From positions 2,108,001 to 2,172,000 of the forward strand of contig NC_020541.1 in the NCBI RefSeq assembly GCF_000230695.2: a stretch of 64,000 nucleotides of DNA, in the 5' to 3' direction. This DNA is from Rhodanobacter denitrificans (GTDB lineage: Bacteria; Pseudomonadota; Gammaproteobacteria; Xanthomonadales; Rhodanobacteraceae). Position numbers and translations under genes: made by a program. Every line of letters begins with the position of its first letter. Position 1 is the stretch's first letter. The notes beneath the pieces were generated by a model. The model was not told the origin of the DNA and ran no database searches. It saw only the letters and a list, made by a program, of their open reading frames with translations. Shown here in pieces: positions 10,470 to 62,905 of the stretch.

Positions 10470-12686
10470 CTACCGGCGCGCCCGGGAGGCGCAAGCCCGC
10501 CCCTGTCCCAAGGCGTCGGCGGGTGGCCGCGCCTCCGCGCCAGCACGGATGGCTCCAATGTCGCGGCGGTACGGCGGCAGGGTGTCCAACATCCGGCGCC
10601 CGTATGCCTTCGTCGTGAGGCGACGGTCGAGGACCGTGATCCGCCCGGTGTCGCTCTCCGTGCGGATGAGGCGACCGCACGCCTGCACCAGGCGTCGGTG
10701 CGCCTCCGGCAGCAGCAGCTCGGCGAACGGCGAACGGCCACGCGCCTCGATCCACTCCGCACGGGTCTCACCCACCGGATCGGTAGGGGACATGAAGGGC
10801 AGCTTCACGATCACCACATGGCTGCACTGGCGTCCGGGCAGGTCCACCCCCTCGGCCAGCGTCGCCAGCCCCACCAGGATGGATCCTTCACCCGCCGCAA
10901 TCGCCGCGCGGTGCGACTCCAGCAGCGGACCGATGGCGCGCGTCCCCTGCACCCGCAGACGGTCGCGCCACGACGCCGGCACCCGCTCCACCAGTGCTTC
11001 CATCAGCGCTCGCGAGGCGCAGAGAATCAGCGTTCCCTCGGCAGGGTCAACCGTCGACTCCAACTCGATCAGGACTTCGGCGAGGAATCGGTCCTCCTCG
11101 GACGGCTCTGCCACCATCGCCGGCACGCGCAGCACCGCCGACCGCTCGAGGTCGAACGGCGAGGGCAGGGCCACGTAGGCCACGCCTGGCACCCGCGACA
11201 GGCCGGAGCGCTCCGCAAAGTGGCGGAAGTCGCCCATCGCCCTCAGGGTCGCCGACGTCGCCACCGAACCGAACGCCTTGCGCCACACCGCCTGGGCAAG
11301 CCAGCCGGAAGCGTCCACGGGGGAGGCGTGCACCTCGACGGTGCCCTTCCCGTCGCGGCTTACCCAGCGAGCCACCGGCGACTCGTGATCCGCGTCCTCG
11401 GCTGCCAGAAGCGCGAGTGTGTCGTGGGCCGACTGCAGCCAGTCTCCCGACGCACCCAGCTCGTGCACCATGCGAGACACCACGCCCGGCGTAACACCTG
11501 CCGGCGGCTCCTTCGACAGCTTTTCCTTTTCCCGCCCCACCTGATCCAGCAGCCACTTCGCCTGGCCAGACGCGACCTCCAGCTCGTCGCGCAGGGGGCT
11601 GAGCTGGGCAGGGAGGACGCGCACCTGGGCAGCGTGACCAAAGGTGCGGCCGTACCGGCGACTGGGCACGGAAGAAGCGTTGCCGTCCAGCAGCGAGGCC
11701 ATGCCTGCGCCGAGATGGTCCAGCGCGGACGAGAGGTCGCGCTCGGCGTCGGCGAGTTTGTCCAAGACGGACGCGGAGTACGCCTTCGCCCGCATCCTGG
11801 CCGCCTGCTGCGACGACTCGATGGCACCGCGTATGCGTTTGGCGTGTCCACCCAAGACCATCGTTGCGGACGAGGCCTCCACCGCGACCTCCGGCAGGTG
11901 GTGCGCCTCATCCACGACCAGGATCGACTCCTCCAGCGGAGGGAGCAGCGTGCCGCCGCCCGTCTCCCGCTGGTCGGCCAGCAGCAGCGCGTGGTTCACC
12001 ACCACGACGTCAGCGTCGCGCACAGACCGACGGGAGCGGAGAAACGCGCACGATGCCGCGAACGGGCACGACGCGCCGGCACAGCCTTTCGCCGTCGTCG
12101 TCAGTAGCGGGCGGACTCTCGGGGGGATAGGGCGCGCCCAGCCGTCCAGGTCGCCGTCGAACTCACGGCGTGATCTGGCCGCACGAAGCTCTTGAACGGC
12201 TTCTCGCTCCTCCGCTGTTGGGCGGAATGGCCAGTGACCACCGCCGGCGTCGCCGCCAAGGTCGAGGCCCAGCTGGTCCGGGTCCTCGCCGGACAGTTGC
12301 GCGAGGTTGCGATCACAGAGGTAGCGCGAGCGTCCCTTGAGGACGGCCGTGCGTACGGGCGTCGAGGTCACACTGGCGATGACGGCGAGGTCAGCCGCGA
12401 GCTGCTGCTGCAGCGCCACCGTCGCCGTGGAGATGACCAGCGTCTTGCCGTGCCGCTTTGCGGCGACCAGTCCTGCTACGACGTACGCGATGGACTTGCC
12501 GATGCCGGTGGGGCCTTCAACCGCGATCGTACGCTGTGCCTCGTCGTCGGCGGACTCGAGCGTACGCGCTATCGCGAGTATCGCTCGGTCCTGCTCTTTC
12601 CGCCTTCTGAACCCTGGCTTGTGCGCGGCCAGTTCGTCGAGCCACGACCGGATTCCCGCGATGGTTTCGGCACTGAGATCGCTCAC
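10470..12686 (-). CDS. dinG: DinG-like Fe-S DNA helicase (738 aa)
   Basis: This is a superfamily 2 XPD/DinG-type 5'-3' helicase. Walker A is EGPTGIGKS (residues 57-65) and the Walker B DEAH box is at 259-262. Four cysteines between them (124, 202, 207 and 213) are spaced as the 4Fe-4S cluster of this family. Later motifs include LVGLATLAEGVDLPG and a QACGRLIRTESD motif VI near residues 690-702. The length matches chromosomal DinG (about 716). DinG unwinds R-loops, D-loops and damaged DNA; here it may help process incoming plasmid DNA. It overlaps the upstream 100-residue gene by 4 bases (ATGA). Confidence 0.9.
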   Translation of the reverse strand: MSDLSAETIAGIRSWLDELAAHKPGFRRRKEQDRAILAIARTLESADDEAQRTIAVEGPTGIGKSIAYVVAGLVAAKRHGKTLVISTATVALQQQLAADLAVIASVTSTPVRTAVLKGRSRYLCDRNLAQLSGEDPDQLGLDLGGDAGGGHWPFRPTAEEREAVQELRAARSRREFDGDLDGWARPIPPRVRPLLTTTAKGCAGASCPFAASCAFLRSRRSVRDADVVVVNHALLLADQRETGGGTLLPPLEESILVVDEAHHLPEVAVEASSATMVLGGHAKRIRGAIESSQQAARMRAKAYSASVLDKLADAERDLSSALDHLGAGMASLLDGNASSVPSRRYGRTFGHAAQVRVLPAQLSPLRDELEVASGQAKWLLDQVGREKEKLSKEPPAGVTPGVVSRMVHELGASGDWLQSAHDTLALLAAEDADHESPVARWVSRDGKGTVEVHASPVDASGWLAQAVWRKAFGSVATSATLRAMGDFRHFAERSGLSRVPGVAYVALPSPFDLERSAVLRVPAMVAEPSEEDRFLAEVLIELESTVDPAEGTLILCASRALMEALVERVPASWRDRLRVQGTRAIGPLLESHRAAIAAGEGSILVGLATLAEGVDLPGRQCSHVVIVKLPFMSPTDPVGETRAEWIEARGRSPFAELLLPEAHRRLVQACGRLIRTESDTGRITVLDRRLTTKAYGRRMLDTLPPYRRDIGAIRAGAEARPPADALGQGRACASRARR

Positions 12687-12985
12687 GCGCTGGCGGCCTC
12701 ACTCGCGAGGCCCAACAGCGCGCGGCTGTCGCCGTACGTACGAGGGTGTACGACCACCTGGTGGCCCTCCTTATGCCACGCGCGATCGAGCTTCGCGCGC
12801 AGATGCACCTGCGCCGGCAGCAGCGGACGCAGGCCGGCGCGGATCAGATCGAGCGCGTCGTACTGGCCCACACTGTCGAGCGCGGCCTGGGGATCGGCCT
12901 CGAACTCGTCGAGCGTGACGCCCAGCTCGGCGAGGTGCGAGGCCTCGTAGACGTAATCAACAACGCGGCGGATCTCGGTGTTCAT
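12683..12985 (-). CDS. Hypothetical protein, first gene of leftward operon (100 aa)
   Basis: The start at 12985 (MNTEIRRVVDYV) has GGAG 8 bases upstream; an in-frame ATG at 12997 has poorer spacing. The protein is small, mainly helical and acidic at the start, then basic (RAKLDRAWHKEGHQVV). Its stop overlaps the dinG start, so it heads the leftward operon. The divergent region upstream carries the inverted-repeat operator at 13094-13132, about 110 bases away. No family recognised. Confidence 0.7.
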   Translation of the reverse strand: MNTEIRRVVDYVYEASHLAELGVTLDEFEADPQAALDSVGQYDALDLIRAGLRPLLPAQVHLRAKLDRAWHKEGHQVVVHPRTYGDSRALLGLASEAASA

Positions 12986-13093
12986 AGCGGACTCCATGTC
13001 CTGGGTGGTAGCTCTCGTGTACCACTGGTGAGGGATACCGCAAGGCCCTCCCCATGGGCCTCCCTGCAACCGTTCGGGCCGGTTTGAGTGCTC

Positions 13094-13161
13094 AGTCGCG
13101 CACCTATTATCTACATAGATAGGTGCGCGACTGGCCGCCGCCCTCCCACTCGCGCACCTAT
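13094..13161. promoter_or_regulatory. Inverted repeat with a third half-site, probable operator
   Basis: Two perfect 14-base arms, AGTCGCGCACCTAT (13094-13107) and its reverse complement (13119-13132), flank an 11-base AT-rich spacer. A third copy of the last twelve bases, TCGCGCACCTAT, recurs in direct orientation at 13150-13161. The site lies in the divergent region between the leftward operon and the partition array, where a repressor or partition protein would be expected to bind. The spacer itself holds an alternative palindrome (TATCTA-CA-TAGATA), so the element can also form a cruciform. Confidence 0.6.
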
Positions 13162-13403
13162 GTCCAGGAGGGGCGCCACCGGCGCCACCGGCATCTCCCT
13201 GGCCGCCGAGAGTCTTTCCCTGCTCGGGCCTTTGCGGGGTGGTGGCCGTCGACGCTTCACCCGCGGCTGGCGCGCATGGAAGGCCTGGGTTCGCGGCGGA
13301 CCATGGCCCGGGATCAACGGGCGAGTGGGCAGGCGTCTGCGTAACGTCGGTGGGCCGATCAGATTGTCCGGTGAAGCGTCGAGCTAAAGCTTTTTGGGGT
13401 TGC

Positions 13404-13627
13404 TGCCGCTATCTGCCTATCCGTGCCAGACGCTGCCGTTGTCTGCCAGCGCCGGCTACACCCGTGACGAACCGTGCCAGACGCTGCCACTCCCTGCCGC
13501 TGCGTGCCTGTTCGAGCCGCTTCCTGCCAACGCCGGGAGGAGCTGGCTTTGCGTGTGCCGGACACTGCCAATTCGTGCCACTTCGTGCCGCGTCAGCCAT
13601 CGCTGCCATTTCCTGCCGTTCCCTGCC
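13404..13627. repeat. Helically phased TGCC array, candidate centromere (parC-like)
   Basis: Nineteen tetranucleotides (17 TGCC and 2 AGCC) occur in register. Block A starts at 13404, 13414, 13424, 13434 and 13444. Block B starts at 13475, 13485, 13495, 13505, 13515 (AGCC) and 13525. Block C starts at 13556, 13566, 13576, 13586, 13595 (AGCC), 13604, 13614 and 13624. Spacing is 10 bp almost throughout, about one helical turn, and the three blocks are separated by the same 31 bp, each gap opening with CGCCGG. Short direct repeats just upstream of an actin-type parM gene are the standard form of a parC centromere bound by ParR. That role is inferred. Confidence 0.7.
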
Positions 13628-13725
13628 GACGTGCACGCACTCGCGTTTTGAAAGCTCGACTTGCGGCCCGGCCGGAGTGTGGGAGGGTCGCAGACTGGAG
13701 ACTCATTCCAGGGAGCGATTCAATC

Positions 13726-14718
13726 ATGGTGCATTTGGGACTCGACATCGGCTACGGCCAAACCAAACTCGCGTGGAGCAGCAACTACGCCCAACCCGTC
13801 GCGGAAGTGCATCCTTCGGGCGCGGCGCCCATCGAGCGGTGTGACCGGATGGCTGGAGGGCAGGTTGGTGATACGGCCCTTGGCTACGGCGAAGAGGTCA
13901 TCGTCGGCAACCGACGCTTTGGCTCGCTGATCGACCCGGACCGAATCCAGAACGGCATGCAGGTCTTGCATCAGGACTACGCCGGGACGCCCGAGTACAT
14001 GGCGTTGTATTACGGCGCGCTCGCCCGGGTCGGGTCCAATGTGATCGACCACCTCGTGACGGGACTGCCCGTTGCACAGTGCAAAGACAAGGAGAGGGCG
14101 CGATACGTCAAGAGCCTTCTCTTGGGTCGGCACAATGTGCGCGAAGGCTTCTCCGTCTCGGTCAACCAGGTCACCATCGTTCCCCAGGCCGTGGGCGCCT
14201 ACTACGCTTTCCAGGACCGCCGCATAGCGGCCCAGCCCCAGCACGATACCTTGCTGGTGGTGGACTTCGGGCACTTCAGCGTGGACTGGGTGCTCATCAG
14301 TGGTCGCTCGTTCCGCGACTCCTCATCGAACAGCTGCGCTCAGGGCGGCAGCTATGTCATCGACCGGATGGTCAGCCTGATCAAGGCCAAGCACGGTATC
14401 GCGGTCGGACGGGAACGAATCTACGGCTACGTTCGGGAAGGCCTGAAGGCAGTCCATCTGGGCACCGAAGAAGTGGACCTGCATGCCATCGGGCACGCTG
14501 CGGCGGCCGAGGTCGCTCCGACAGTGGTCGGGCAGATCCGCGCCTCACTGCGCGACCAGTCCACCGACGTTAACCGGGTGCTCCTGTGCGGCGGCAGTAC
14601 GCCGTTCTTCGAGGCGGCGATGCGGGATGCCTTCCCCAAGGCCGTGTACGAGTTGGCGCCCATGCCGGTACTCGCAAACGCGATCGGCTTCCGTTTGTTT
14701 GCCAAGAAGAGCGGCTGA
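13726..14718 (+). CDS. parM: ParM/StbA-like actin-type plasmid segregation ATPase (330 aa)
   Basis: The N-terminus GLDIGYGQTKLAW is the phosphate-1 loop of actin/Hsp70-fold ATPases. LLVVDFGHFSVDWVLISG (about residues 180-197) is phosphate 2, and VLLCGGSTPFF near residue 286 is the adenosine loop. The length fits ParM/StbA (about 320). ParM polymerises on ATP and pushes plasmid copies apart through ParR bound at parC. The start at 13726 follows GGGAG by about 10 bases. It stands directly downstream of the phased TGCC array and upstream of a candidate parR, the classical type II order. A small inverted repeat just before the start may be an autoregulatory site. Confidence 0.85.
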   Translation: MVHLGLDIGYGQTKLAWSSNYAQPVAEVHPSGAAPIERCDRMAGGQVGDTALGYGEEVIVGNRRFGSLIDPDRIQNGMQVLHQDYAGTPEYMALYYGALARVGSNVIDHLVTGLPVAQCKDKERARYVKSLLLGRHNVREGFSVSVNQVTIVPQAVGAYYAFQDRRIAAQPQHDTLLVVDFGHFSVDWVLISGRSFRDSSSNSCAQGGSYVIDRMVSLIKAKHGIAVGRERIYGYVREGLKAVHLGTEEVDLHAIGHAAAAEVAPTVVGQIRASLRDQSTDVNRVLLCGGSTPFFEAAMRDAFPKAVYELAPMPVLANAIGFRLFAKKSG

Positions 14719-14751: not shown

Positions 14752-15348
14752 GTGAGTAATCAGCCATCGACTTCAAACGCACAGATCCGCATCTTCTTTC
14801 GCGGCTCTTCGCCGCTCGATCGGCACGTCCGCGCGGTCGCCCAGAAGCAGAGGGCGCCGCTCATCAAACAGCTCGCGGGCGACTTCCTCGCCCTCCAGCG
14901 CGCTCACTACGTCTTTCCAGTCAACCTGGAGCCCTCAGCGGGCAATGGCCCGATTGAGCCCGATGGCCCGGGCCACGCACCGATCGGCGTACGCGTGACG
15001 TTTGTCGGCGACTCACCCCTCGACGAAATGTTCCGCGCGATGCCCTGCTCGACGCCGCTCGAGTGTGCCCACCGCATTGCGACGCTCAGGCAGCTGGCTG
15101 AGAACGGCTTCGCTGTGGCGAGTCGTGGCATTCGCCACGACGCGGTGGTGCTGCGCGAGGAACCTGCGGGCGGCTTGGTCGTGAGTCGCGCGGACGGTGC
15201 CTCCCCACCCCCGGCAGCTGCACCGTCGGCGGCGGCCCGCCAAGCCGGCGTAAGCAGCTGGAGCCGCGCGATCACGCTGGAGGAGTCGCATGGTGACCAC
15301 GGTGAGGAAGGCTACTCGGCGTTCGATCTTCAGGTAGCCATCGCATGA
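14752..15348 (+). CDS. Candidate ParR-like centromere-binding adaptor (198 aa)
   Basis: The GTG start follows AGGAG by 7 bases, 33 bases after parM. The N-terminus contains a short strand (QIRIFFRG) followed by two helices (PLDRHVRAVAQKQRAPLIKQ), which could be a ribbon-helix-helix fold of the kind ParR uses to bind parC. The middle (about 65-150) has a second SPLDEMFRAMPC-like segment and the C-terminus is disordered and Ala/Pro-rich, ending in an acidic tail that could contact ParM. I do not recognise the sequence as ParR; the assignment rests mainly on position. Its stop overlaps the next gene's start as ATGA. Confidence 0.5.
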   Translation: MSNQPSTSNAQIRIFFRGSSPLDRHVRAVAQKQRAPLIKQLAGDFLALQRAHYVFPVNLEPSAGNGPIEPDGPGHAPIGVRVTFVGDSPLDEMFRAMPCSTPLECAHRIATLRQLAENGFAVASRGIRHDAVVLREEPAGGLVVSRADGASPPPAAAPSAAARQAGVSSWSRAITLEESHGDHGEEGYSAFDLQVAIA

Positions 15349-16718
15349 ATACGGCATCGCGATCTCGCGCCAAGACGATTATGTCCAGCCCTGCCGCCTT
15401 CCGCGCCCGGCTGCAGCGCTGTGGGTACCCGGTTGCTCCGCTCGCGCCCGTCCACTGGCGCTCGGCGCGGGCGGTCACGCGACAAAGCGCCGCTACAGTC
15501 CCCGCCAACTGCTGGCGTACCCTCATTCAGTGGCGTGCGGTCGTAGTGCTCACGGTTCGGACGGTTCGCCAGGGTCTTACGCGAGCCCAGATAGCTGCCG
15601 CGTCGAAACGTTGTTGTGCGCTACTGCGTCGGTCTTTTACGCAGTGCGTCCATTTCAGCATCCGGCCACGAGCCGCGCTGATCGCGCGGCCAGGAATGCC
15701 TGTTCGGCCTGTTCTTATGGATCCTGCACTGCCTGTTCTGTGGCGGCCTCGCGGCTTCGCCGGTGCATGGATGCGCCTGCGCAAGGTTCTCCAGGATGGG
15801 CAGCGGACAGCAATCCGGTGGGGCCGTCGCCTCGACGTGACACCACGGGTCAGGCAGCTTGGCGCGCGTTATGCAATGAACGGAGCCTCGGCTCTGGTAG
15901 CGGTGGTGGTCACTCTCTACCTGCCAAAGATTACGCACACTGAAGTGGAACATTCACCTTCCGCCACGCCCCAACATGGCCTTGCTTCGTCGCGTGGCCG
16001 AGCATCCGTCCAGGCCCCAGTTCCGGTGGAGGTGGCACGGCGTCCGCAGGGTTCTGCGACCGCACGCACCATCAATGGCGGAGCAGCGGCTTCCAGCCTA
16101 CCGACTCTTGTTGTCTTCGCGGACGAAGGCCCCCAGCTCGATGGGTCCGATCGCGCGGCTAGCGCCAATGGCGGCGGCGCCGCCGCTCACGCAAACCTAG
16201 ACATTACGGACCCGCACAGCGTCTGGTATAGGGCTGGAGCGGACCACGGGATCGACCCGCTGCTGCTCTACGCCATCGCATTGGTCGAGTCACGAAACCA
16301 AATGGCCGACGGAACGGTCGCGCCTCGTGCCTATGTGGTCAACATCGACAACGTGGTGCGATATGGGACGCGTGCCGAGATAGTCGACATGATCCATTCG
16401 GCGCGCACGGAGCATCGCGACATCAGGGACGTTGGGATCATGCAGGTCTTTTGGCCGTCCCACCGCGACTTGGCGCCGGACCCGGTTGCTCTGCTGGACC
16501 CAACGACCAACATCAACGTCGGCGCCGAGATCCTGCGCGGCGCGCTGGCAAGCTCGGTGGATCCGGTGACGGCGCTGGGCCACTACCACAGCTACGACGC
16601 GACACGGGCAAGCTATTACGGCCGTGCCGTTTATACGGTCTACCACCGCCTGCAGCGCGCCCTTGGGCGCTTGCCGTCCAGCGAGTTGGCCAGTACCGAG
16701 AGAGCGGTGCCTGACTAG
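15345..16718 (+). CDS. Membrane-anchored SLT-type lytic transglycosylase (457 aa)
   Basis: The C-terminal 160 residues are a lysozyme-like SLT domain. GIDPLLLYAIALVESRNQ carries the catalytic glutamate (E315), and DVGIMQVFWPSH, NINVGAEILRGAL and ALGHYHSY follow in the family order. A hydrophobic segment around residues 181-197 (SALVAVVVTLYLPK) anchors it. The first 175 residues are unusually Arg-rich and presumably cytoplasmic. Such enzymes (VirB1, TraP/PilT types) open the peptidoglycan for secretion channels. It overlaps the upstream candidate parR by 4 bases, an odd coupling of partition and cell-wall genes. The very basic N-terminal extension is not usual for this family. Confidence 0.8.
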   Translation: MNTASRSRAKTIMSSPAAFRARLQRCGYPVAPLAPVHWRSARAVTRQSAATVPANCWRTLIQWRAVVVLTVRTVRQGLTRAQIAAASKRCCALLRRSFTQCVHFSIRPRAALIARPGMPVRPVLMDPALPVLWRPRGFAGAWMRLRKVLQDGQRTAIRWGRRLDVTPRVRQLGARYAMNGASALVAVVVTLYLPKITHTEVEHSPSATPQHGLASSRGRASVQAPVPVEVARRPQGSATARTINGGAAASSLPTLVVFADEGPQLDGSDRAASANGGGAAAHANLDITDPHSVWYRAGADHGIDPLLLYAIALVESRNQMADGTVAPRAYVVNIDNVVRYGTRAEIVDMIHSARTEHRDIRDVGIMQVFWPSHRDLAPDPVALLDPTTNINVGAEILRGALASSVDPVTALGHYHSYDATRASYYGRAVYTVYHRLQRALGRLPSSELASTERAVPD

Positions 16719-61846: not shown

Positions 61847-62905
61847 ATGGCACTGAAATTTCTTGTGGGTCTGCTCGTCGTGATGATGCTCGGCATTTCG
61901 GGCGTATACCTGAGTAACCAGCACTCCGTAACCGCGAACGCCGATACCCAAGCATATGGCGCAAATGCCATGATGCTCGGCAATCTCGCATCCCACTATG
62001 CTGCCAAGAATCCGTCCGTCACCGGAGTGGAATCCCCGGCCGCGCTGTCGGCGCCGCCGTACTACGTGCCGCAGCCCGGGCTGACCGCGTATGTCTCGCA
62101 GGGGAGCGCGTACGTTTATCTGGCTCCGAATGGGCCGGTGGCTCCCAGCGCCAGCCTGCGCGATGTGGCTACTCACACGCGCAACGTCCTGGCCGGCATC
62201 AAGCAGGCGAGTGGGGCCATCCTCGACGCCACCGGCACTGTCGTAGCGTCCGGCGTTCCGGCGGCGATTCCGAACGGGAGCATGGTTCTCGTGGCTAGGG
62301 CCGTGGGGCCCTCGTCGGCGCAGACGCCGCCAGCGAGAGGCGCACCGGCGTCGTTGGCTGCATTAACTACTGGCGCCGCAATCGGTGGTCCTTCGTCGTA
62401 CGGTAATCCGACAGGCGCCTACGTTGGCTGGAATCCGAGTACGCCACTGCCGCCGGCTGCGCCACCGCTTCCACCGCCGCCGCCGCCACCGCCGCCGTAC
62501 ATCAAGGCGGACGACCCTTCGGCCTGCTACGCGACAGGCGGCATGCCCTACACCGTCACCCCCAGCGCGATCTATTCCGGCGTCGGGGCTGCGAATTTTT
62601 ATGGTGGCGCGGTCAACTACTTTAGGGGCACCACCACCGCCCGCGGTACGGCGACCGGAAGCTACCACTTCACGATCGCTTTCAATGGGGCTACTCAATC
62701 GCTGTCGCTCACGTGCACCCGCTTGAACACGGACAACACAACGATCGGCGATGACTGTTCGTACAACCAGGACTTCAACGTTGGAGGGGGCACGTTCAAC
62801 ATCGCCTTCGATTCAACGTCGCCGCTGAAGCAGGACTGGGTAGTTGGAGCGCTAGCACCGTATTCCGCGGGCGTCACCATTACGCAGAAGAACTGCAACC
62901 CCTGA
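61847..62905 (+). CDS. PilM-like pilus protein with C-terminal extension (352 aa)
   Basis: The start at 61847 follows GGAG by 9 bases. One N-terminal helix (LKFLVGLLVVMMLGISGVYL) is followed by NAMMLGNLASHYAAKNPSVTG and YVSQGSAYVYLAPNGP, the layout of R64-type PilM (about 145 residues), down to PAAIPNGSMVLVA. A Pro-rich hinge (about residues 203-222) and a new C-terminal strand-rich domain of about 130 residues with four cysteines follow; R64 PilM lacks it. It is the last gene before the terminator. The extension might be surface exposed. Confidence 0.6.
   Translation: MALKFLVGLLVVMMLGISGVYLSNQHSVTANADTQAYGANAMMLGNLASHYAAKNPSVTGVESPAALSAPPYYVPQPGLTAYVSQGSAYVYLAPNGPVAPSASLRDVATHTRNVLAGIKQASGAILDATGTVVASGVPAAIPNGSMVLVARAVGPSSAQTPPARGAPASLAALTTGAAIGGPSSYGNPTGAYVGWNPSTPLPPAAPPLPPPPPPPPPYIKADDPSACYATGGMPYTVTPSAIYSGVGAANFYGGAVNYFRGTTTARGTATGSYHFTIAFNGATQSLSLTCTRLNTDNTTIGDDCSYNQDFNVGGGTFNIAFDSTSPLKQDWVVGALAPYSAGVTITQKNCNP

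Follow-up and report, generated by a model that had tools for sequence, protein, structure and literature searches.

A (T/A)GCC array with a 10-bp period as the probable parC site of an actin-type partition locus in Rhodanobacter denitrificans

The 64,000-nucleotide stretch of Rhodanobacter denitrificans DNA analysed here (contig NC_020541.1, positions 2,108,001 to 2,172,000; hereafter the window, to which coordinates refer unless stated otherwise) carries nineteen short direct repeats in 10-bp steps immediately upstream of a gene for an actin-like ParM ATPase. This array very probably serves as the parC centromere, and probably as an operator too, in a type II (actin) partition locus with the order parC-parM-orf2, in which the orf2 product would bind and wrap the site and capture ParM. 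The array and its non-randomness, the family of ParM, the operon order, a free plasmid form of the locus and the enrichment of phased arrays upstream of related parM genes were observed directly; binding by the orf2 product, wrapping, ParM capture and partition are proposed by analogy with homologues. The elements of the array are:

13404..13627, plus strand: parC-like phased array of 19 units at 10 bp (sequence and position scan)
13404..13447, plus strand: block 1, five units (position scan)
13448..13474, no strand: gap 1, with CGCCGG at 13450 and room for two missing units plus 1 bp
13475..13528, plus strand: block 2, six units, one of them AGCC at 13515 (position scan)
13529..13555, no strand: gap 2, with CGCCGG at 13531
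13556..13627, plus strand: block 3, eight units, with AGCC at 13595 flanked by 9-bp steps

The position scan revealed 17 TGCC and two AGCC tetramers (n = 19), arranged in blocks of five, six and eight as described in the initial annotation of this DNA. TGCC starts at 13404, 13414, 13424, 13434 and 13444 in block 1, at 13475, 13485, 13495, 13505 and 13525 in block 2 (AGCC at 13515), and at 13556, 13566, 13576, 13586, 13604, 13614 and 13624 in block 3 (AGCC at 13595). The step within blocks is exactly 10 bp, with two consecutive 9-bp steps at 13586-13595-13604 as the sole exception. Both gaps measure 31 bp from start to start, and CGCCGG begins 6 bp past the first base of the TGCC that closes block 1 and block 2 (13450 and 13531), as had also been noticed earlier. 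If each gap is counted as two missing units, the 220 bp between the first and the last unit correspond to 22 steps with a mean of 10.0 bp. From the end of the array to the parM ATG (13726) there are 98 bp, in agreement with the distance of about 100 bp given before.

The initial annotation had further claimed that only a 4-base core is conserved while the phase is strictly kept. The phase is kept, apart from the 9+9 step; the conservation extends beyond the core, which is preceded by C or G in 19/19 units and followed by A or G in 17/19. T at −4 and C at +8 are each present in 13 of the 19 units, the flank columns of neighbouring units overlapping; together with S(T/A)GCCR these two positions make up the approximate consensus. 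The proposal that all units face the same side of the helix is true only at 10.0 bp per turn, where the 19 units give a phase resultant of 0.89. At 10.5 bp per turn the resultant is 0.19, each unit drifts by about 17 degrees, and the phase is gone across the array (approximately a full turn in relaxed DNA). Because the phase is kept at 10.0 and lost at 10.5 bp per turn, the array would suit DNA that is wrapped or over-twisted in a complex rather than relaxed DNA.

The spacers are mutually dissimilar (mean pairwise identity 0.35), and a simple tandem repeat was rejected on this ground. A protein-coding origin was rejected since a period of 10 bp does not correspond to codons and the annotation of the plasmid copy (see below) begins parM after the array. 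No Rfam match was found at E<=1 between 12900 and 15400, which offers nothing for an RNA element.

The spacing is far from random. In the 235-bp region 12 TGCC pairs are found at a lag of 10 bp, whereas 5000 dinucleotide shuffles averaged 0.096 such pairs and never exceeded 3; the proposed periodicity thus withstood autocorrelation analysis. When every tetramer was scored at lags of 8-14 bp over the 64-kb window, the array had the top score (12) and the runner-up scored 5, and the maximum for any tetramer at these lags in 40 shuffled 64-kb windows was 4. The window's second-best phased tetramer was CGCC at a 9-bp lag (5 pairs, at 62442). A pattern of four TGCC units occurs five times in the window's genome, four of them inside the array. 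The five-unit pattern was detected in 7/398 genomes of the order and a backwards control pattern in 4 genomes; in the other six genomes with the five-unit pattern it lies in simple or near-simple tandem repeats.

The genes downstream of the array support the assignment to a partition locus:

13726..14718, plus strand: parM-like actin ATPase gene (330 aa) with ALP_N (PF17989) and MreB-like_C (PF21522) domains, annotated as ParM/StbA on the plasmid copy
14752..15348, plus strand: orf2, candidate ParR/SrpR-type adaptor gene (198 aa) with two apparent units (about residues 12-50 and 80-124) and an acidic C-terminal tail
15345..16718, plus strand: SLT transglycosylase gene, third in the order parM, small gene, SLT

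ParM matched PF17989 (E 9e-25) and PF21522 (E 4e-8), both above cut-off, and PHROG 691, a partition protein family (E 5e-34). The locus thus has the actin-like ParM ATPase gene and the repeated cis site upstream of parM that characterize type II loci, and it shares a homologous ParM with the SrpMRC family. The gene orf2 starts 33 nt past the parM stop. Beyond the SLT transglycosylase gene there are two unknowns followed by TraF and TraH; upstream of the array, on the opposite strand, there is a 100-aa unknown (12686-12985) and then dinG. The order parM, small gene, SLT is also found on plasmids of Azotobacter salinestris and Methylomonas koyamae, the small gene of the latter being a 77-aa frame without annotation.

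Relatives of ParM were mostly 30-38% identical proteins of conjugative plasmids and of apparent integrative and conjugative elements of the SXT/R391 type, identity to the SXT-like and IncC proteins being 33-34%. Many of these relatives look like SXT/R391 elements, judged by their host range, by an R gene of 89 aa and pI 9.3, as published for SrpR, and by Marinomonas strains among those listed in PMC5122569. In the ParM tree the window's protein is on a long branch and falls outside the supported group, of 27 sequences, that includes the SXT-like and IncC proteins; its exact place is unsure. Searches of viral contigs with alignments of the close ParMs and of orf2 yielded no closer relatives, and neither did a phage search with one close ParM, P0003.

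To the loci of these relatives we applied a test for phased arrays, in which a segment score at lags of 8 to 14 bp was compared with 300 shuffles per locus. The sample comprised the best 80 of 197 confirmed genome loci, 2 viral loci, further genome loci and plasmids. Apart from the window's own copies, the relatives with reachable DNA had at most 38% ParM identity, the closest ParMs (P0002-P0010, 52-68%) lying outside the comparison. Upstream DNA was available for 97 loci, 36 of them non-redundant with the window's included, which left 35 relatives. A phased array was detected upstream of 8/35 at p<=0.01 and of 13/35 at p<=0.05. Eight loci were added after this first count without a redundancy check (p = 0.59 for L280, 0.066 for L281, 0.229 for L250, 0.013 for L251, 0.724 for L252, 0.003 for L253, 0.309 for L254 and 0.043 for L255), giving 9/43 at p<=0.01 and 16/43 at p<=0.05. 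Control segments (n = 108, 100 shuffles), which were drawn at random from the same loci and not confined to intergenic DNA, scored 3/108 and 10/108, respectively. The difference between the 43 relatives and the controls is significant by one-sided Fisher tests (7e-4 at p<=0.01, 1e-4 at p<=0.05).

The lag was 11 bp in 10 of the 16 positive relatives and 10 bp in two (L088 and L253), with clear 11-bp arrays in Azospirillum, Gallionella/Nitrosomonadales and IncC loci. The expectation that the same periodicity would be found upstream of related parM genes was therefore borne out for phased arrays as such, mostly at 11 bp, and failed for the TGCC motif, which none of the other loci carries. The 11-bp arrays upstream of parM in L043, L050, L022 and L011 (Azospirillum, Nitrosomonadales, Gallionella) are distinct from each other: the pitch is kept and the motif differs. 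In L253, which is from the same class and has a 28% identical ParM, CCATCT occurs at 1143, 1153, 1163 and 1173 and again at 1215, 1225, 1235, 1245 and 1255 of the locus, that is, in blocks of 4 and 5 stepped at exactly 10 bp. These blocks lie 234-346 bp before parM, which is followed by an R-like gene. From its sequence, this array is an independent 10-bp parC candidate. Both CCATCT blocks (L253, 1143-1260) adjoin a copy of GCTGGGTTTGGCCG. A small R-like gene is found after parM in 82/95 relative loci, by a pattern that was written after inspection of the proteins and with many near-copies among the loci.

SrpMRC of SXT/R391 and the parMRC loci of IncA/C, pAQU1 and pCAR1/pDK1 resemble the Rhodanobacter locus in their homologous ParM, in the site upstream of parM, in the small downstream gene for an adaptor (here putative) and in the MOBH / F-type transfer genes. 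In SXT/R391, SrpR is described as binding srpC upstream of srpM, and a test plasmid was not stabilised if srpC, srpM or srpR was missing (PMC4489591). The centromere idea gains support from these homologous loci, which have a demonstrated centromere in the same place, and from the arrays found in relatives above controls. In the same source the related parMRC loci are positioned between traG-like and mobI-like genes; here the upstream gene (12686-12985) had no MobI match in Pfam or NCBIfam, unlike the mobI-like neighbour of the SrpMRC family. The Rhodanobacter locus also differs from SrpMRC in having 19 direct units at 10 bp and an orf2 product of 198 aa with two apparent units, whereas SrpR-like proteins have one N-terminal unit in 77-113 aa.

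ParR proteins are reported to bind repeats of 11 bp (R1), 10 bp (pB171), 20 bp (pSK41) and 17 bp (pCW3) (PMC9426499). The example of pB171 corrects the earlier statement that known parC sites (R1, pSK41) use longer repeats of 11 or 20 bp. R1 parMRC likewise has direct repeats in separated sets upstream of parM; there, ten repeats of 11 bp form two sets around the promoter (PMC9426499, PMC5016525), whereas the present array has three sets, a 10-bp period and a shorter core. The 10-bp repeats of pB171 parC are like those found here, and for pSK41, with its 20-bp repeats, contacts are described on 10-bp repeats; compared to both, the array has 19 units, three blocks and a shorter conserved core. 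In R388 the stability operon is accompanied by the stbDRs, two groups of five short direct repeats with units of 9 bp and spacers of 2 nt (PMC3098194). The 9-bp unit cited in the initial annotation was thus correct, with a period of 11 bp, and StbA acts with the Walker-type StbB and not with an actin. In AlpACS of the Corynebacterium prophage CGP3, the adaptor AlpA reads a repeated TTAAnnG upstream of its own operon, which contains an actin-like gene (PMC5539076); motif and host differ, the comparison covering the short repeated motif and its position.

The array had been presented as a new-looking centromere. The parM-linked centromere stands up, with srpC of SXT/R391 and the 9/43 against 3/108 arrays in relatives; the claim of a new kind does not, given the 10-bp repeats of pB171 and L253. 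Type II centromeres with short direct repeats, 10-bp ones included, are already known. What is new are the three blocks, the short core and the larger number of units (19, against ten in R1, ten in R388, four in pCW3 and four in srpC, as far as the sources describe them). No publication on this array or on a Rhodanobacter ParM was found by title and start of abstract, in a coverage that omits most subscription journals. A long, near-minimal parC that keeps its phase and leaves its spacers free is a natural test of spacing versus sequence in centromeres, and comparison with the homologous 11-bp arrays bears on whether the handedness of the ParR-DNA superhelix is set by the pitch of the repeats.

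Segrosomes of this type are described as a protein superhelix with the DNA wrapped outside and the ParR tails inside (PMC5016525). By analogy, the orf2 product would use an N-terminal part resembling a ribbon-helix-helix to bind side by side on consecutive 10-bp units, and would wrap the approximately 220 bp into a superhelix or ring. Its exposed C-terminal tails would then capture the growing end of ParM filaments, which would move sister plasmids apart. The bound orf2 product would probably also repress the operon. Binding of the array by the orf2 product is plausible from the position of orf2 in the operon and from its weak likeness to SrpR-like proteins.

These SrpR-like proteins (23 sequences, 77-113 aa) share an N-terminal unit, which reads as strand, helix, helix, and a short C-terminal motif. 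In orf2, residues about 3-29 resemble residues 71-97 (10/27 identical, BLASTP E 3e-5), and by reading the likeness continues through the second helices. The Smith-Waterman score of the two halves, which were picked after seeing the sequence, is 47, matched by 2/5000 shuffles; a test with any split, which allows for this choice, gave a score of 50, above all 1000 shuffles (best 49). The orf2 product thus seems to hold two copies of a unit that occurs once in SrpR-like proteins. Its first 60 residues have a pI of 11.4, the tail 4.6 and the whole protein 6.4. Only two relatives were found in databases (95% and 53% identity), and a repeated protein search with the orf2 alignment, in which the 7998 candidates sharing most words were scored, returned the same two proteins; the last five residues are identical in the 53% relative. 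The AlphaFold models are of low confidence (mean predicted local distance difference test scores of 33 and 48); in the second model each unit contains a pair of helices, and a strand precedes the second unit. A Foldseek search with this model returned 6 entries (best E 2.6), none significant and none a ribbon-helix-helix protein. ParR structures are present in the PDB; neither orf2 nor the SrpR-like profile had a sequence match to any solved chain.

For the adaptor, these data provide a lead towards a ribbon-helix-helix protein of two units, perhaps in a single chain. The most specific form of this idea is doubtful: the adaptor might be a fused single-chain ribbon-helix-helix pseudo-dimer of two unequal beta-alpha-alpha units, which could read asymmetric 10-bp units, whose core is very short, in a single orientation and so build a polar segrosome. 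As the relatives' arrays mostly have an 11-bp pitch and the present one 10 bp, the superhelix drift relative to 10.5-bp DNA would then be opposite to that of the 11-bp arrays. If true, the two-unit adaptor would be an example of how directionality can arise in a DNA-binding fold that is normally dimeric.

The array, parM and orf2 are also present in Rhodanobacter denitrificans FW104-R5, on the circular 205-kb plasmid NZ_CP088981.1. Between 12986 and 15350 plasmid and window differ in one base (13191), and the array is identical. The plasmid is non-mobilizable in PLSDB typing; its annotation names a MobH relaxase, F-type transfer genes and a pilus cluster with a shufflon PilV. In the window's chromosome the corresponding segment is flanked by direct repeats of 16.6 kb, which align with 0 mismatches and one gap and are spaced 241,019 bp apart. 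The segment resembles a plasmid-type unit that needs a means of inheritance, and on the best reading the element is a MOBH / F-type plasmid carrying a type II (ParMRC) partition locus. The whole plasmid-like element was located at 2004360-2262022 of the genome contig (the window being 2108001-2172000), with a third, inverted copy of the 16.6-kb repeat; the plasmid's copy of the repeat contains mer genes. Differences reported between resequenced and deposited 2APBS1, which the authors consider to be probable assembly effects, include one deletion of 0.24 Mb in the resequenced genome (PMC8809349). If the window is from 2APBS1, as we infer, the 0.24-Mb piece may be this element, and the 241,019-bp spacing matches.

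Several observations weigh against a partition role for the array, among them the two limits of the comparison of relatives given above, namely the absence of the closest ParMs and the controls not confined to intergenic DNA. The TGCC array was found in none of 105 loci scanned except the two own copies, so the motif is not conserved. At p<=0.01, 34/43 relatives had no array, and 27/43 were not significant at 0.05. The L251 hit (lag 9) lies in apparently coding DNA and the L088 hit in G-runs. The SXT-like L044 was not significant (p=0.073); because srpC is an experimentally demonstrated site, this indicates that the test is insensitive and misses true centromeres. The orf2 product (14752-15348) had no family match in Pfam, NCBIfam or PHROG. 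Its alignment to the SrpR-like profile is weak and in the same register (hhalign probability 1.8%, P 0.028); hmmsearch gave E 0.005 for the first half and 0.017 for the second, and at least 20/5000 orf2 shuffles had a better best domain score. The plasmid is also annotated with ParB and an adjacent AAA ATPase (ParA-like by reading) and with a PRTRC locus, and its main partition system may therefore be one other than parMRC.

Viral contigs must be added to this list. The 10-bp TGCC pattern is commoner there (at least 120 stretches, mostly repetitive), and among the 120 viral stretches listed, 9 had a spacer identity of at most 0.45, with 5 to 8 unbroken units. In the five of these nine low-identity phage stretches that were inspected, no parM-like frame was recognised by eye, no domain search having been made. 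Such short phased arrays suggest that other proteins may read them. Phased TGCC arrays whose spacers vary freely occur outside this locus too, only much shorter; the present array is distinguished by its length, its blocks and its position before parM, not by divergent spacers alone. Phage arrays with dissimilar spacers include those of L191 (597-666), L201, L101, L164 and L206, some near HNH-, terminase- or portal-like genes (translations read by eye).

Other explanations of the array are less likely than partition. It is quite unlikely that the array belongs to a transfer origin, as relaxosome accessory sites of the kind read by StbA-type proteins. In plasmid relatives the divergent gene upstream of parM is mobI, the SXT origin of transfer (oriT) lies in the mobI-parM gap (PMC4489591), the R388 stbDRs are reported to serve both stability and transfer (PMC3098194), and a perfect 15-nt inverted repeat at 13093-13133 occupies the same gap as the array. 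However, this inverted repeat is about 270-310 bp from the array and the upstream neighbour lacks a MobI match; the SXT srpC repeats are placed in the 5' untranslated region of srpM (PMC4489591), and the order parM, small gene fits partition operons.

A pure operator for the parM operon or other genes, without a centromere role, is very unlikely. Its position immediately upstream of the operon and the short phage arrays without a recognised parM would suit an operator, and ParR-type proteins, once bound, are described as also repressing their own promoters (PMC5016525), but 19 phased units exceed what simple repression should need. No sigma-70-like promoter emerged from a consensus scan of the region, a result that carries no information in this host. 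That the units are replication iterons or arose by simple expansion of a tandem repeat, as direct repeats on a plasmid might suggest, is extremely improbable in view of the dissimilar spacers (0.35, against the simple or near-simple repeats of the six other genomes of the order) and of the lack of an annotated replication gene within 20 kb on the plasmid.

ParM was also considered as PRTRC system protein D (TIGR03739) and rejected: it scored 138 bits (137.3 in the genome search) against the NCBI cut-off of 214.8. It is the sole TIGR03739 and the sole PF17989 match in the window's genome, about 77 bits under the TIGR03739 cut-off. The annotated genes of the PRTRC locus (NZ_CP088981.1, 57110-63372; L241) name no protein D. 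Since ParM is the only TIGR03739-like protein and these genes name no protein D, ParM might serve both systems.

Three inverted repeats were noticed around the array. A perfect 13-nt inverted repeat, TCGACGCTTCACC, has its arms at 13249-13261 and 13370-13382, 108 nt apart, the second arm lying directly before the array. An 8-nt inverted repeat (GTCGAGCT / AGCTCGAC, 13378-13385 and 13653-13660) brackets the array, possibly by chance. The perfect 15-nt repeat (13093-13107 / 13119-13133, 11-nt loop) has a third copy at 13147-13161 and is an oriT or operator candidate.
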